A stretch of DNA of 64,000 nucleotides from Verrucomicrobiota bacterium (GTDB lineage Bacteria > Verrucomicrobiota > Verrucomicrobiia > Opitutales > UBA953), in the NCBI GenBank assembly GCA_030830965.1, contig JAURLX010000004.1, positions 1 through 64,000 of the forward strand. The letters are read 5' to 3'. Positions 31,166-39,627 of the stretch are shown in pieces. The notes beneath the pieces are model-generated. The model had not been told where the DNA came from. It made no database searches and was given only the letters and a program-made list of their open reading frames with translations. Made by a program: the position numbers and the translations under genes. How positions within the stretch are numbered: position 1 is the first letter of the stretch; each line of letters starts with the position of its first letter.

Positions 31166-31603
31166 ATGGATAACAAACTGTTCGTAGGCAATCTGGCTTG
31201 GGCTTCGACCGAGGCCGACATCCGGGCTCACTTCTCCCAGGCGGGAGAGGTCGTTTCCGTCGAAGTGATGATGGACAAGTTCACGGGACGTCCCCGTGGC
31301 TTCGCCTTCGTCACGATGGGTAACGCCCAGCAGGCTCAGGACGCGATCGCCAAGACTGAAGGCGTCGAGTTCATGGGTCGTCCCCTGAAGGTCAACGTGG
31401 CCCGTCCCCGTGAGGAGCGTCCCTCCTTCGGCGGTGGCGAGCGTCGCGGCGGCTTCGGCGGCGGCGAACGCGGCGGCTTCGGCGGCGGCGGACGCGGCGG
31501 CTTCGGCGGCGGCGAACGTCGCGGCGGCTTCGGCGGTGGCGGACGCGGCGGCTTCGGCGGAGATCGCCGTGGCGGCTTCGGCGGCGACCGTGGCGGCTAC
31601 TGA
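31166..31603 (+). CDS. RRM RNA-binding protein with RGG/FGG glycine-rich tail
   Basis: KLFVGNLAWASTEADIRAHFSQAGEVVSVEVMMDKFTGRPRGFAFVTM (RNP2 and RNP1), then GGGERRGGFGGGERGGFGGGGRGGFGG tail. Confidence 0.95.
   Translation: MDNKLFVGNLAWASTEADIRAHFSQAGEVVSVEVMMDKFTGRPRGFAFVTMGNAQQAQDAIAKTEGVEFMGRPLKVNVARPREERPSFGGGERRGGFGGGERGGFGGGGRGGFGGGERRGGFGGGGRGGFGGDRRGGFGGDRGGY
31431..31600 (+). repeat. Imperfect tandem repeats encoding RGGFGG/GGERRGGF units
   Basis: Repeated ggcggcttcggcggcggcgaacg-like units in the 3' part of the RRM gene. Confidence 0.85.
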
Positions 31604-34977: not shown

Positions 34978-35883
34978 TCACCTGACCGGGCGGAGGGATG
35001 AGAGCGGCAGGCGGAAGATGTCGCCCTGTTCGCTCGCGAGGAGCAAGGTGGACGCGTCGGCCCAGGCGCAGCCTTCCAGCTGCCAGGAAAGCAGCGGCGG
35101 GGAAAGCGCCGAGCCGAGCGCGCGGCCGGAGAAGAACGCCTCCCCTTCGGCCGGAAGGTCGAACACCCAGATGAAACGGTAGGTCAGCACCGCGAGCTTC
35201 GTCCGATCGGGCGAGACGGATGCGTCGGTCACCATGCCGAGCGCGTCGAACCGGGCGAGCTTCACCGGCTCCGTCCGGTCCCCGTGCGCGGGGATCTCGA
35301 TGCGCCAGAGGTCGGTGAGGGTGTCCCGTCGGTGCTTGGTCAGCAGGTACAGCCGCCCGCGGAGCATGAAGACGGCCTCGCAATCGTGGGAGAGCTCCGG
35401 GTCGGGAAAGACCTTCTGGTCGGGCCAGGCGAAGGTGACACGACGGGCGGCCGTGGTCGCGGCGCCCCGGGCCGGCTCCTGCAGCACGTAGAGCTGGAGC
35501 TCTTTGCGCAGCGACAGGTTGTTGCCGACGTCGGCGACGATCATGCGTCCTCCTGCCTCGCCCGTGAGTCCCTCCCAGTCGTTGCGGGCGGCGCCGACGA
35601 CCTCGGTCCCCGTCCACGGGGCTCCGGCATGCTCGGCAAAAGCTCCGTCCGAACGGAGAGGGATGAGGCGGGGCCGGGGGCCGTGGTCGGAGACGGCCCA
35701 GAAGACTCCGGGCATGGAGGGACTCGCCCAGAGGCCGGAGCATTCCGGCAGCGCGGCCCTCGGCAACTTGCCCGCGGATCTCAGCTCGACCGGCGGGAAT
35801 CCGGGTGCGGCGCGCGTGACGACGGCGGGCTCGGCGCCGGCGAGGACGGAGCCGGCCAGAACGACCATGAGCGAGGACCGCAT
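34978..35883 (-). CDS. Secreted beta-propeller-like / phytase-like esterase domain protein
   Basis: Signal peptide MRSSLMVVLAGSVLAGAEP; CSGLWASPSMPGVFWAVSDHGPRPRLIPLRSDG...NDWEGLTGEAGGRMIVADVGNN; repeated blade-like segments. Confidence 0.6.
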   Translation of the reverse strand: MRSSLMVVLAGSVLAGAEPAVVTRAAPGFPPVELRSAGKLPRAALPECSGLWASPSMPGVFWAVSDHGPRPRLIPLRSDGAFAEHAGAPWTGTEVVGAARNDWEGLTGEAGGRMIVADVGNNLSLRKELQLYVLQEPARGAATTAARRVTFAWPDQKVFPDPELSHDCEAVFMLRGRLYLLTKHRRDTLTDLWRIEIPAHGDRTEPVKLARFDALGMVTDASVSPDRTKLAVLTYRFIWVFDLPAEGEAFFSGRALGSALSPPLLSWQLEGCAWADASTLLLASEQGDIFRLPLSSLRPVR

Positions 35884-35968
35884 GCGGCCAAGATGATGAA
35901 CCAAGGCCGCAAGGCAATCCGAGGCGGTTTGGGATGGCGCAAGGGCGGGCCGGCGCAAGCATCACGCC

Positions 35969-36559
35969 ATGGCCCGCTCCGCCCGCGACCTCTGGACGGC
36001 ACGCCTCAAGGGCGGGGTGTCGCGCGTATCCAGCAGCCTGCCCCGGCGCAATTCGACGGCCGTCGCGCCCGGAGCGAAACGCGGCTGCAGAGCGATCATC
36101 ATCGGCATCGATCCGTCCCTGCGCGGGACCGGGCTAGCGGTGGTCGACGCGCGCGGTCCCGCGCCCCGGCTGCTCGCGAGCACGACCCTGCGGCTGCCGG
36201 CCCGCCTCACCCAGGCCGAATGCCTCGGACGGATCGCGGCCGCCTCGGAGAAGATGGCGCGCGAACATCAGGCGACGGAAGTGGCGGTCGAGGGCACGAT
36301 CTACGTGCAGAACTTCCGCACGGCGCAGGCGATGGGGGCCTCCCGCGGCGCCGCGCTGGGAGCGGTGGCCAGGCTGGGCCTGAAAGTGACCGAATACGCT
36401 CCGGCGAGGATCAAGCAGGCGGTGGCCGGTCACGGCCGGGCCAGCAAGGACCAGGTGGGCCGCATGGTAAGCGCGGCGCTCGGCCTGACGGACGTCCTCC
36501 CCGCGGACGAGTCGGATGCGGCGGCGGCGGCGCTCTGCCACGCCTACAACGCGCGCTGA
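35969..36559 (+). CDS. ruvC: Crossover junction endodeoxyribonuclease RuvC
   Basis: IIIGIDPSLRGTGLAVVDARG...EVAVEGTIYVQNFRTAQAMGASRGAALGAVARLGLKVTEYAPARIKQAVAGHGRASKDQVGRMV...ADESDAAAAALCHAYN. Confidence 0.93.
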   Translation: MARSARDLWTARLKGGVSRVSSSLPRRNSTAVAPGAKRGCRAIIIGIDPSLRGTGLAVVDARGPAPRLLASTTLRLPARLTQAECLGRIAAASEKMAREHQATEVAVEGTIYVQNFRTAQAMGASRGAALGAVARLGLKVTEYAPARIKQAVAGHGRASKDQVGRMVSAALGLTDVLPADESDAAAAALCHAYNAR

Positions 36560-36561
36560 GC

Positions 36562-39132
36562 TCAGTCCTCCGTGACGGCGAAACGGTCCGCCCGGCCGTT
36601 CGCCTCGCTCCAACGGGCCATCAGCTCGTCGAGCGGCACGGGGCGCACCTTCTGGGCGAGGTTGGCCGCGCCGGCCTCGAGGCAGGCGCGCAGCTGGTCC
36701 CACACCGCGCCGTAGGAGCGCGAGAAACGCAGCGAGCCGTCGCGGATGAGGCTGGAGACCTGGCAGCAGCCGCCGACCTCCGTGCAGGTGAAGCGCCCCG
36801 CCTTGAACTCCTCCGTCGAGACGGCGAAGAGATCGAAGCGGGCGAAGTGCAGCCCCGGGAAACGCCGGGCGAAGGACGTCACCGCGGCCTCGAGCTCGGG
36901 CGTGAGCAGATCGGGCCGGTGGACGCAGCGGGCGCCGTGCCCGTAGCTGCCGGTGGGGTTGAGCGTCACCGTCTCTCCGGCGGCGGGCACCCGGGTGAGG
37001 GAGCGCGAGTGGCAGCGCAGGTAGAGGGCGGCCCGGGCGACCGCACGGTCGTCGAGCCAGATCAGCTCCTCCAGCGTCTGATCGCCGTCGCCGCGCACGG
37101 TCACCGCGCGCTTCTCGACGACGGCCATGACACGCCCGTCGTCGTGGCCGGGACTGCGGCGCCAGACCACCTCGAATTCACGGCCGCGGACGAGCGGCTG
37201 CAGCACCAGGTCCTCCTCCGCGCCGCGCATCAGACGCTCGAGCGCCACGCCGTCGCGGACGATGCGGAGCCCCGCGCCGTTCTCCGAGACCTCGGGCTTG
37301 CAGACGAGCGGGAAGCCGTGCGCGGAGGAGAACGAGGCGGCCTCGCGGACGCGGGCTTCGGAATCCTCGTCGACGGAGAGCGCCAGGGTCGGGCAGCAGC
37401 GGGAATCGCGCTGGAAGGGCCGCAGCAGCAGCGAACGGGAGTCGCCGGTGAAGCCCCCGATCCGGCCGAAGGAGGGATTGGCCGAGGCGAAGGCCGTCAG
37501 GCTGAGGTGACGCAGGCTGAGCAAGGCCACGCCCAGGCGCACGGGGAGGAAGAGGATGCCCGACCTCCAGCCCGAGGGCTGGAGAAATCGGCGCACCTTC
37601 ATGACGATCTCGCGACGGCCACGCCAGGTGAGGGCCGGCACCACCCAGTGCGTGAGGAACCAGATCAGGAAGAAGATCCCTATCACGATCCACGCCGCAT
37701 ACTGCTTGTAGCGCGGGAACTGCTCCATGAAGGGCGGGCCCAACGTGCTTCCCAGCAGCATGAGGAAGGGCGTCCACACCAGCGCGGCCACGAAGAGGAG
37801 GAGCGCGAGGCGCGGCAGGCCGAGCCGCAGGATGCCGGCGGTCACGAAGGTGGGCACGCGGCTCGCGGGGATGAAGCGCGAGCTGACGATCACCAGCAGC
37901 CCGCGGGGCGACCCGAACCAGCCGGCCATCCGGTCGATCTCATGCTCCTTGACGATCCACCTGAGCGGCGCGCGCCGGAGCGCGCCGCGGCCGAGCCAGC
38001 GGCCCAAGCCGTAGAGCACCATGTCGCCGATGAAGATGCCGGCCGTGCAGGCGAGCGCCGCCCACCAGAAGCTGATGATGCCCTGGGCCGAGAGCAGGCC
38101 GGAGGCCAGGCAGGTCGGATCCTCCGCGACGAAGGTGCAGAATATGATGACGAGGATCAGCATCCAGAAGCGCGCGCCGCCGGAGACGACCAGTTCGGGA
38201 TAAGGCTGGGAGGGCGGGACGGGGGCGGGGCGCACGGCGGCGCGTCCGGCCTCGGCGTCCAGGATGAAGCGGGCGACGCCGGGGGCGGCCGCCTGGGCGA
38301 CCGCGCCGCCATGACCGCCCTCCAGTTCCAGCAGCCGGGCCTGTGGCATGAGACGGGCGGAATAGCGGGCGGCGTCCACGGGCGTGATCCAGTCGGACTG
38401 GCCGTGGACGATGAGGGCCGGGCCGTTCCATGCGCGCAGCAGCTCCCTGGCGCCCGAGAGGTCGCTGTCGAAGAACACGCCCGAATAGCCGCGATTGAAG
38501 GGGATCCGGTCGGCGAGCCCGAAATGGGGCGTCGCGACGTCAAGCAGCAGGAACGGAAGATGATGGAAGAAGTAGACGAACTTGTTGGCCACCGCGTTGC
38601 CCAGCAGCGTGTACTCCTGCGCGCTGGGCGCGGAGATCATGGTCAGCGAGGCGACGTTGTCAGGATGGCGGCTGGCGATCTCAAGCGCGACGATGCCGCC
38701 CATCCCCTCCCCGACGAGATGGAACCGTCCCTTCCCCAGCCGGGACTTGATCGACTCGAGTGCATCCTCCGCGATGCGGTCGATGGCCATCGTGGGGCGC
38801 GAACGATGATTGCGCGTCGGCCAGCCGACGGCCCAGACCTCGCCCACGCCGGGCACGTCGTCGGACCTCACGGAGAGGGCGGATCGCTTCCATCCTTCGC
38901 CGTCGTCCGGCAGGCGCGGGACGACCACCACCGGCAGGGCGCCGGACGGCGCCATGCTGAAGGCCGGCAGGACCCGCTCGAAGGAGATCGCACGCACCCG
39001 CTCCGGCTTCGGCAGACGATCCTCCGCCGTGACCCAACGGGAAAGCAGGACCGCGAGGAGATAAGCCCCAAGGATAACCCACTTTCCAGGAATCCGCCGT
39101 GCGGAGCGCTTGCGATCGGCGGTCGTGGACAT
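36562..39132 (-). CDS. Three-domain membrane fusion: alpha/beta-hydrolase-like - DedA/SNARE-associated (VTT) - ATP-grasp
   Basis: From MSTTADRK (856 aa): N-terminal TM; FHLVGEGMGGIVALEIASRHPDNVASLTMISAP...GQSDWITPVDAA...LELEGGHGGAVAQ; VTT core GDMVLYGLGRWLG...SSRFIPASRVPTFVTAGIL; ATP-grasp GFPLVCKPEVSENGAGLRIV...LVLQPLVRGREFEVV...HFARFDLFAVSTEEFKAGRFTCTEVGG. Confidence 0.88.
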   Translation of the reverse strand: MSTTADRKRSARRIPGKWVILGAYLLAVLLSRWVTAEDRLPKPERVRAISFERVLPAFSMAPSGALPVVVVPRLPDDGEGWKRSALSVRSDDVPGVGEVWAVGWPTRNHRSRPTMAIDRIAEDALESIKSRLGKGRFHLVGEGMGGIVALEIASRHPDNVASLTMISAPSAQEYTLLGNAVANKFVYFFHHLPFLLLDVATPHFGLADRIPFNRGYSGVFFDSDLSGARELLRAWNGPALIVHGQSDWITPVDAARYSARLMPQARLLELEGGHGGAVAQAAAPGVARFILDAEAGRAAVRPAPVPPSQPYPELVVSGGARFWMLILVIIFCTFVAEDPTCLASGLLSAQGIISFWWAALACTAGIFIGDMVLYGLGRWLGRGALRRAPLRWIVKEHEIDRMAGWFGSPRGLLVIVSSRFIPASRVPTFVTAGILRLGLPRLALLLFVAALVWTPFLMLLGSTLGPPFMEQFPRYKQYAAWIVIGIFFLIWFLTHWVVPALTWRGRREIVMKVRRFLQPSGWRSGILFLPVRLGVALLSLRHLSLTAFASANPSFGRIGGFTGDSRSLLLRPFQRDSRCCPTLALSVDEDSEARVREAASFSSAHGFPLVCKPEVSENGAGLRIVRDGVALERLMRGAEEDLVLQPLVRGREFEVVWRRSPGHDDGRVMAVVEKRAVTVRGDGDQTLEELIWLDDRAVARAALYLRCHSRSLTRVPAAGETVTLNPTGSYGHGARCVHRPDLLTPELEAAVTSFARRFPGLHFARFDLFAVSTEEFKAGRFTCTEVGGCCQVSSLIRDGSLRFSRSYGAVWDQLRACLEAGAANLAQKVRPVPLDELMARWSEANGRADRFAVTED

Positions 39133-39207
39133 GGGGGCCACACATCCAAACCCGCCCGGAGCCGGGGGCAAGAAGGTAAGGCCGCGGGACGGGCGTTTTG
39201 GCTTCCT

Positions 39208-39627
39208 ATGCGGCTCCGGTTGGCTTGGCTGGAGCCAGTGCAACCCAGCGGAAAGGAGCTGCCCGGCCTCAGGGTCACCGTCGACAGGGTGGTGCATCAG
39301 AAACTGGCCGACCATCCTCCGGAGACCCCGCACGCCTTCGCCTATTTCCTCACCATCGTGAATCTTTCCACCGAGACCGTCCGCATCCTCGGACGCAAAT
39401 GGATCCTCCGCCCCGAGGGCGGCGGGGTGCAGGTCATCGAGGGCGATGGCGTGGTCGGCAAGTCCCCCCTGCTCGCGCCGGGCGAGAAGTTCTCCTACAG
39501 CAGCCACCACCTCGCGGCCGGCCGGGTCGTCGCGGAGGGCGCCTTCCACGGGGCGACCAGCTCCGGCGAACGGGTCTTCGTGCGCATCCCGGCCTTCGAG
39601 ATGAGCCCGCCGGAGGACGGCGCCTGA
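39208..39627 (+). CDS. apaG: ApaG/DUF525 domain protein
   Basis: PHAFAYFLTIVNLSTETVRILGRKWILRPEGGGVQVIEGDGVVGKSPLLAPGEKFSYSSHHLAAGRVVAEGAFHG. Confidence 0.92.
   Translation: MRLRLAWLEPVQPSGKELPGLRVTVDRVVHQKLADHPPETPHAFAYFLTIVNLSTETVRILGRKWILRPEGGGVQVIEGDGVVGKSPLLAPGEKFSYSSHHLAAGRVVAEGAFHGATSSGERVFVRIPAFEMSPPEDGA

Follow-up and report, generated by a model that had tools for sequence, protein, structure and literature searches.

To our knowledge, no settled account exists of the passage of non-phosphorus lipids, ornithine lipids among them, through the inner membrane, and no ATP-grasp or DedA step was found in the aminolipid literature searched. Among the described systems, the lysyl-phosphatidylglycerol synthase-flippase MprF combines a soluble lipid-aminoacylating domain and a lipid-translocating membrane domain in one polypeptide (PMC11980842), and resembles in this respect the fusion protein presented here. 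The DedA/VTT proteins of COG0586, such as UptA and YghB, carry the acidic residues E39 and D51 at the first re-entrant helix tip and Arg130 and Arg136 at the second, and the counterparts of YghB D51, R130 and R136 are essential in DedA proteins of E. coli and of B. subtilis (PMC10127716). As partners in DedA fusions, that paper names rhodanese, PAP2 and pyridine-nucleotide-disulfide oxidoreductase, and neither ATP-grasp nor alpha/beta hydrolase. A literature search on DedA and ATP-grasp found no paper describing a triple architecture of hydrolase, DedA and ATP-grasp, nor a published function for such a fusion, in keeping with the original prediction, which knew of no characterised system of this kind.

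The window, which is the whole analysed stretch of 64,000 nucleotides, comes from a freshwater Verrucomicrobiota bacterium, and the features of its fusion gene are listed in Table 1. The frame stays open upstream of the assigned ATG, but close relatives share the start MSTxAxRKR. The single frame with an N-terminal TM helix, a hydrolase, a DedA/VTT core and an ATP-grasp domain, as originally predicted, was confirmed by the Pfam and NCBIfam profiles, by AlphaFold and Foldseek, and by the hydrophobic helix. Pfam detected Abhydrolase_1 (E 4e-15) and VTT_dom (E 4e-14), the latter with 53.7 bits against a curated cut-off of 33.9, which places the core in the DedA/VTT family, and the best NCBIfam profile on this part was UptA (5e-15), whereas the ATP-grasp part is weak by profile, with CPSase_L_D2 of Pfam at 0.15 and cyanophycin synthetase of NCBIfam at 1e-4. 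The full-length AlphaFold model is moderate (pLDDT 70.6, pTM 0.45) and does not fix the mutual placement of the domains; its Foldseek matches were esterases/lipases and CphA/GshF, and the C-terminal 317 residues modelled alone reached a pTM of 0.79 and matched CphA1, GshF and Ddl at E 1e-8 to 1e-11. The profile matches and the structural matches together establish three folds in the 856-aa protein. A 1447-aa open frame was also observed antisense to the fusion gene (window 35284-39627, plus strand), likely a high-GC artefact, and 31166-31603 on the plus strand encodes a small protein of RNA-binding-like type (MDNKLFVGNLAW...) that carries a Gly/Arg-rich repeat at its C-terminus.

Table 1. Features of the fusion gene, with positions in the window.
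Feature	Position	Strand	Basis
Fusion gene, 856 aa: N-terminal TM helix, hydrolase fold, VTT/DedA core and ATP-grasp fold	36562..39132	-	Pfam, NCBIfam, Foldseek, family survey
Start codon (ATG); final codon; stop codon	39132; 36565; 36562-36564	-	
Hydrophobic helix, residues 18-37, 6 K/R ahead	39022..39081	-	hydropathy and charge only
Alpha/beta-hydrolase fold, residues about 60-305, catalytically defective	38218..38955	-	Pfam, Foldseek, alignment
Codon 143: Gly; nucleophile Ser in intact fused relatives (GEGMGG vs GYSQGG)	38704..38706	-	alignment
VTT/DedA membrane core, residues about 312-505	37618..38199	-	Pfam, NCBIfam, YghB alignment, PMC10127716
ATP-grasp fold, residues about 545-840; Asn of E-x-N lost	36613..37500	-	alignment, AlphaFold, Foldseek
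Codon 787: Gly at metal-ligand Asn position (TEVGGC vs IELNGV)	36772..36774	-	alignment

The fusion gene was found in 74 of the 79 genomes of the window's family, with no internal stop among the matches listed, and it occurs as two separate pieces in three family genomes (G403, G410 and G435); this distribution shows that the 856-aa fusion is real and is neither a chance frame nor an assembly artefact. A search of 388 Verrucomicrobiota genomes at E 1e-20 gave matches in 37 of them; some relatives possess VTT and ATP-grasp without the hydrolase, and a few possess ATP-grasp alone. In the tree of ATP-grasp domains the window's family is a single clade (SH-aLRT 99), so that losses at the base of this clade can explain the changes in both active sites described below. 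A split fusion gene was additionally observed in L026 (G074:C10), with query residues 6-588 and 603-762 on two contig stretches, and an Opitutae-type fusion gene with 74% identity lies on contig CALPIW020000007.1 of a Polynucleobacter meluiroseus MAG (L037), probably a mis-binned contig.

The active sites were compared in an alignment of 88 distinct sequences, comprising family members and relatives outside the family. The nucleophile site of the hydrolase is Gly in every window-family sequence that covers it, with motifs such as GEGMGG, GQGFGG, GFGQGG and AHGLSS, and the catalytic His is also lost in many of them; the window protein, with Gly143, thus keeps the alpha/beta-hydrolase fold without the Ser, Asp or Cys of a nucleophile elbow. 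Fused relatives from elsewhere in the phylum have retained the Ser in GYSQGG-type motifs, the exceptions being the broken gene of L026 and the clade L019-L021, which is a separate clade with an NGHAG motif in a degenerated hydrolase region (no hydrolase by Pfam in L019) and an intact E-x-N in its ATP-grasp domain. The E-x-N motif is likewise kept in every aligned ATP-grasp domain outside the window's family and is present in no sequence within it, where EVG, EIG, TGV or similar was observed instead, and the HCRG/HARG loop, otherwise conserved, is missing as well. The window protein retains the ATP-grasp fold with K612, E652, K674, D767 and E785, so that two ligands of the metal triad D, E, N are present and the third is replaced by G787. 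E785 is kept in most of the window's genus, genera g2 and g199 have lost the Glu, and a new pair, C789-C790, is nearly invariant among the close relatives of the window protein. Nucleotide binding may persist, as K612, E652, K674 and D767 are kept, and with these residues and mostly E785 in place, the Asn-to-Gly change in E-x-N does not prove that the ligase is dead.

In the alignment of the membrane core to E. coli YghB, D338, R419 and R425 correspond to D51, R130 and R136, an equivalent of E39 is absent, and D338, D370, R419 and R425 are near-invariant inside and outside the family. Median dN/dS (Nei-Gojobori, 138 close pairs within the window's family, calculated per domain) was 0.17 for the hydrolase, 0.084 for the VTT core and 0.086 for the ATP-grasp domain. 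Although its active site is altered, the ATP-grasp domain is under as much constraint as the membrane core. The six K/R ahead of the first TM helix and the signal-peptide-like N-termini of the VTT-first relatives L018, L022 and L027 favour an arrangement with the hydrolase outside and the ATP-grasp domain inside; hydropathy and charge suggest a cytoplasmic N-terminus, a periplasmic hydrolase and a cytoplasmic ATP-grasp domain.

The gene neighbourhoods were compared for 30 loci outside the window's family. Of these, 22 have a DinB-like gene and 20 an NRDE/TANGO2 gene; the usual order is DinB, NRDE and fusion gene on one strand, and the NRDE genes beside the fusion start with Met-Cys in most loci. 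No TANGO2/NRDE gene was found in any of the 79 genomes of the window's family. For the human TANGO2, a role as a Cys N-terminal-nucleophile hydrolase (PMC13044924) or as an acyl-CoA binder (PMC11867700) has been proposed, and for its bacterial homologs heme trafficking was proposed (PMC10470608) and disputed (PMC12782551). OlsF adjoins the fusion gene in G178, G207, G340 and G355, an OlsB-like GNAT lies beside it in four further genomes, and most fused loci have no adjacent OlsF/OlsB. The four OlsF adjacencies have a p of about 2e-6 under a simple model (17 OlsF-bearing genomes, 10 kb on either side, an assumed genome of 3.5 Mb), and the co-occurrence with OlsF across the phylum is modest (20/37 vs 111/351, Fisher p 0.01, uncorrected for phylogeny). 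OlsF was not found in the window's own genome, which is 87% complete. As a separate observation, none of the eight genomes of genus g2 (family f1) has the OlsF-type ornithine-lipid synthase, which most other family members possess.

The modules also exist unfused, such as the separate consecutive genes for VTT, ATP-grasp, DinB and NRDE in Salinivibrio kushneri; the tightly spaced order VTT, ATP-grasp, DinB, NRDE, YHS, MauE-like and OlsF on one strand in Vibrio sp. THAF191d; the ATP-grasp gene preceding an OlsB-like gene in Variovorax; and the neighbouring ATP-grasp, alpha/beta-hydrolase and VTT genes in Paracoccus denitrificans, with VTT on the opposite strand, while VTT and ATP-grasp are fused in Azospirillum. 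That the modules are fused in some genomes and separate neighbours in others argues that they work together. In the Vibrio locus L094 (10328-13043), YHS-domain, MauE-like and OlsF genes follow VTT, ATP-grasp, DinB and NRDE, and the YHS gene recurs in six Verrucomicrobiota loci. The product of V. cholerae VCA0646 functions as an OlsF, an enzyme that makes ornithine lipids, and its gene comes last in the operon VCA0649-VCA0646 (PMC12186959); a link between this operon and colony cell death has been reported (PMC11573629). An amide and lipid theme would fit these neighbour genes.

The explanation that we tentatively favour, at somewhat less than even confidence, is an ancestral aminolipid ligase-flippase-hydrolase system from which the window protein derives as a flippase with two probable pseudoenzyme domains. 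In the ancestral intact form, the cytoplasmic ATP-grasp domain would make an amide on an amino-acid-containing lipid of the ornithine-lipid type, the VTT core would carry the lipid product over the inner membrane, and the periplasmic hydrolase would trim this product or its carrier. The hydrolase and the ATP-grasp domain would, in the window's family, have lost their chemistry or had it strongly altered, and the window protein would persist as a DedA-type lipid flippase whose former enzyme domains may serve in binding, in sensing (of ATP or lipid, for example) or in gating. A broader proposal, which we regard as possible and rather doubtful, is an undescribed envelope-lipid system in which a single-chain or split set of cytoplasmic amide ligase, DedA flippase and periplasmic hydrolase makes, exports and edits an amino-acid-containing lipid, one family having turned it into a flippase with two pseudoenzyme domains. 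The coupling of ligation to lipid translocation, put forward in the original prediction, gains support in the wider family from the split neighbouring genes in Proteobacteria and the OlsF/OlsB neighbours, and is probably wrong for the window protein itself, given Gly143 and Gly787.

An active conjugate synthase-flippase in the window organism, as first read, is considered very unlikely. The architecture speaks for it, as do the gene neighbours of relatives with intact catalytic sites, but both active sites are without key residues family-wide and the partner NRDE gene was found in none of the 79 family genomes. The constraint on the ATP-grasp domain, the retention of K612, E652, K674, D767 and usually E785 in the window's genus, and the C789-C790 pair would also suit a re-specialised enzyme, in which the hydrolase alone is dead and the ATP-grasp domain still performs ATP-dependent chemistry with an altered metal site on a new substrate; this seems unlikely, as the Asn of E-x-N is gone across the family, E785 is gone in g2 and g199, and the HCRG/HARG loop is missing. 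A polyprenyl-phosphate (UndP) recycling flippase, with a COG0586-like VTT core tuned by the extra domains, is likewise improbable, although UptA is the top NCBIfam profile on the core, the Arg pair lies at the YghB spacing and no DUF368-type flippase was found in 41 family genomes. Against it stand the missing E39 equivalent and the single-domain DedA, mostly one, that accompanies the fusion in most family genomes, with typical re-entrant motifs in those examined, so that the housekeeping UndP role is probably not that of the fusion; the idea that the fusion is the sole UndP flippase is weakened by the same proteins. The losses of catalytic residues and partner genes could point to a decaying relic kept by chance, but the purifying selection on all three domains, with dN/dS far below 1, argues that there is no decay, and together with the wide retention of the uninterrupted gene it makes this reading scarcely credible; decay of the fusion gene was thus rejected. 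The window's family represents a natural experiment, as two enzyme domains have lost catalytic residues in one lineage and are still under selection.

Compared with the known systems, MprF differs in its use of aminoacyl-tRNA and another synthase domain, whereas the window protein has an ATP-grasp domain and a hydrolase with key residues missing in the family; the MprF synthase and flippase domains were not found in the Pfam or NCBIfam scans of the window protein, and the comparison concerns the manner of working. What the window protein has in common with UptA and YghB of COG0586 is the VTT core and, at the tips of the re-entrant helices, the aspartate and both arginines; it differs by lacking the E39 equivalent. 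The fold of its C-terminal part is common to the ligases cyanophycin synthetase, GshF and Ddl, whose metal ligands D, E and N are all present in the relatives outside the family, whereas the ATP-grasp domain of the window protein is attached to a membrane core and the E-x-N Asn is lost in the family. OlsF and OlsB of ornithine-lipid synthesis are separate proteins that occur as genomic neighbours of some catalytically intact relatives. A DedA core that is joined to a ligase and a hydrolase or encoded next to them, with OlsF/OlsB also nearby in some loci, offers a concrete candidate for the crossing of aminolipids over the inner membrane.
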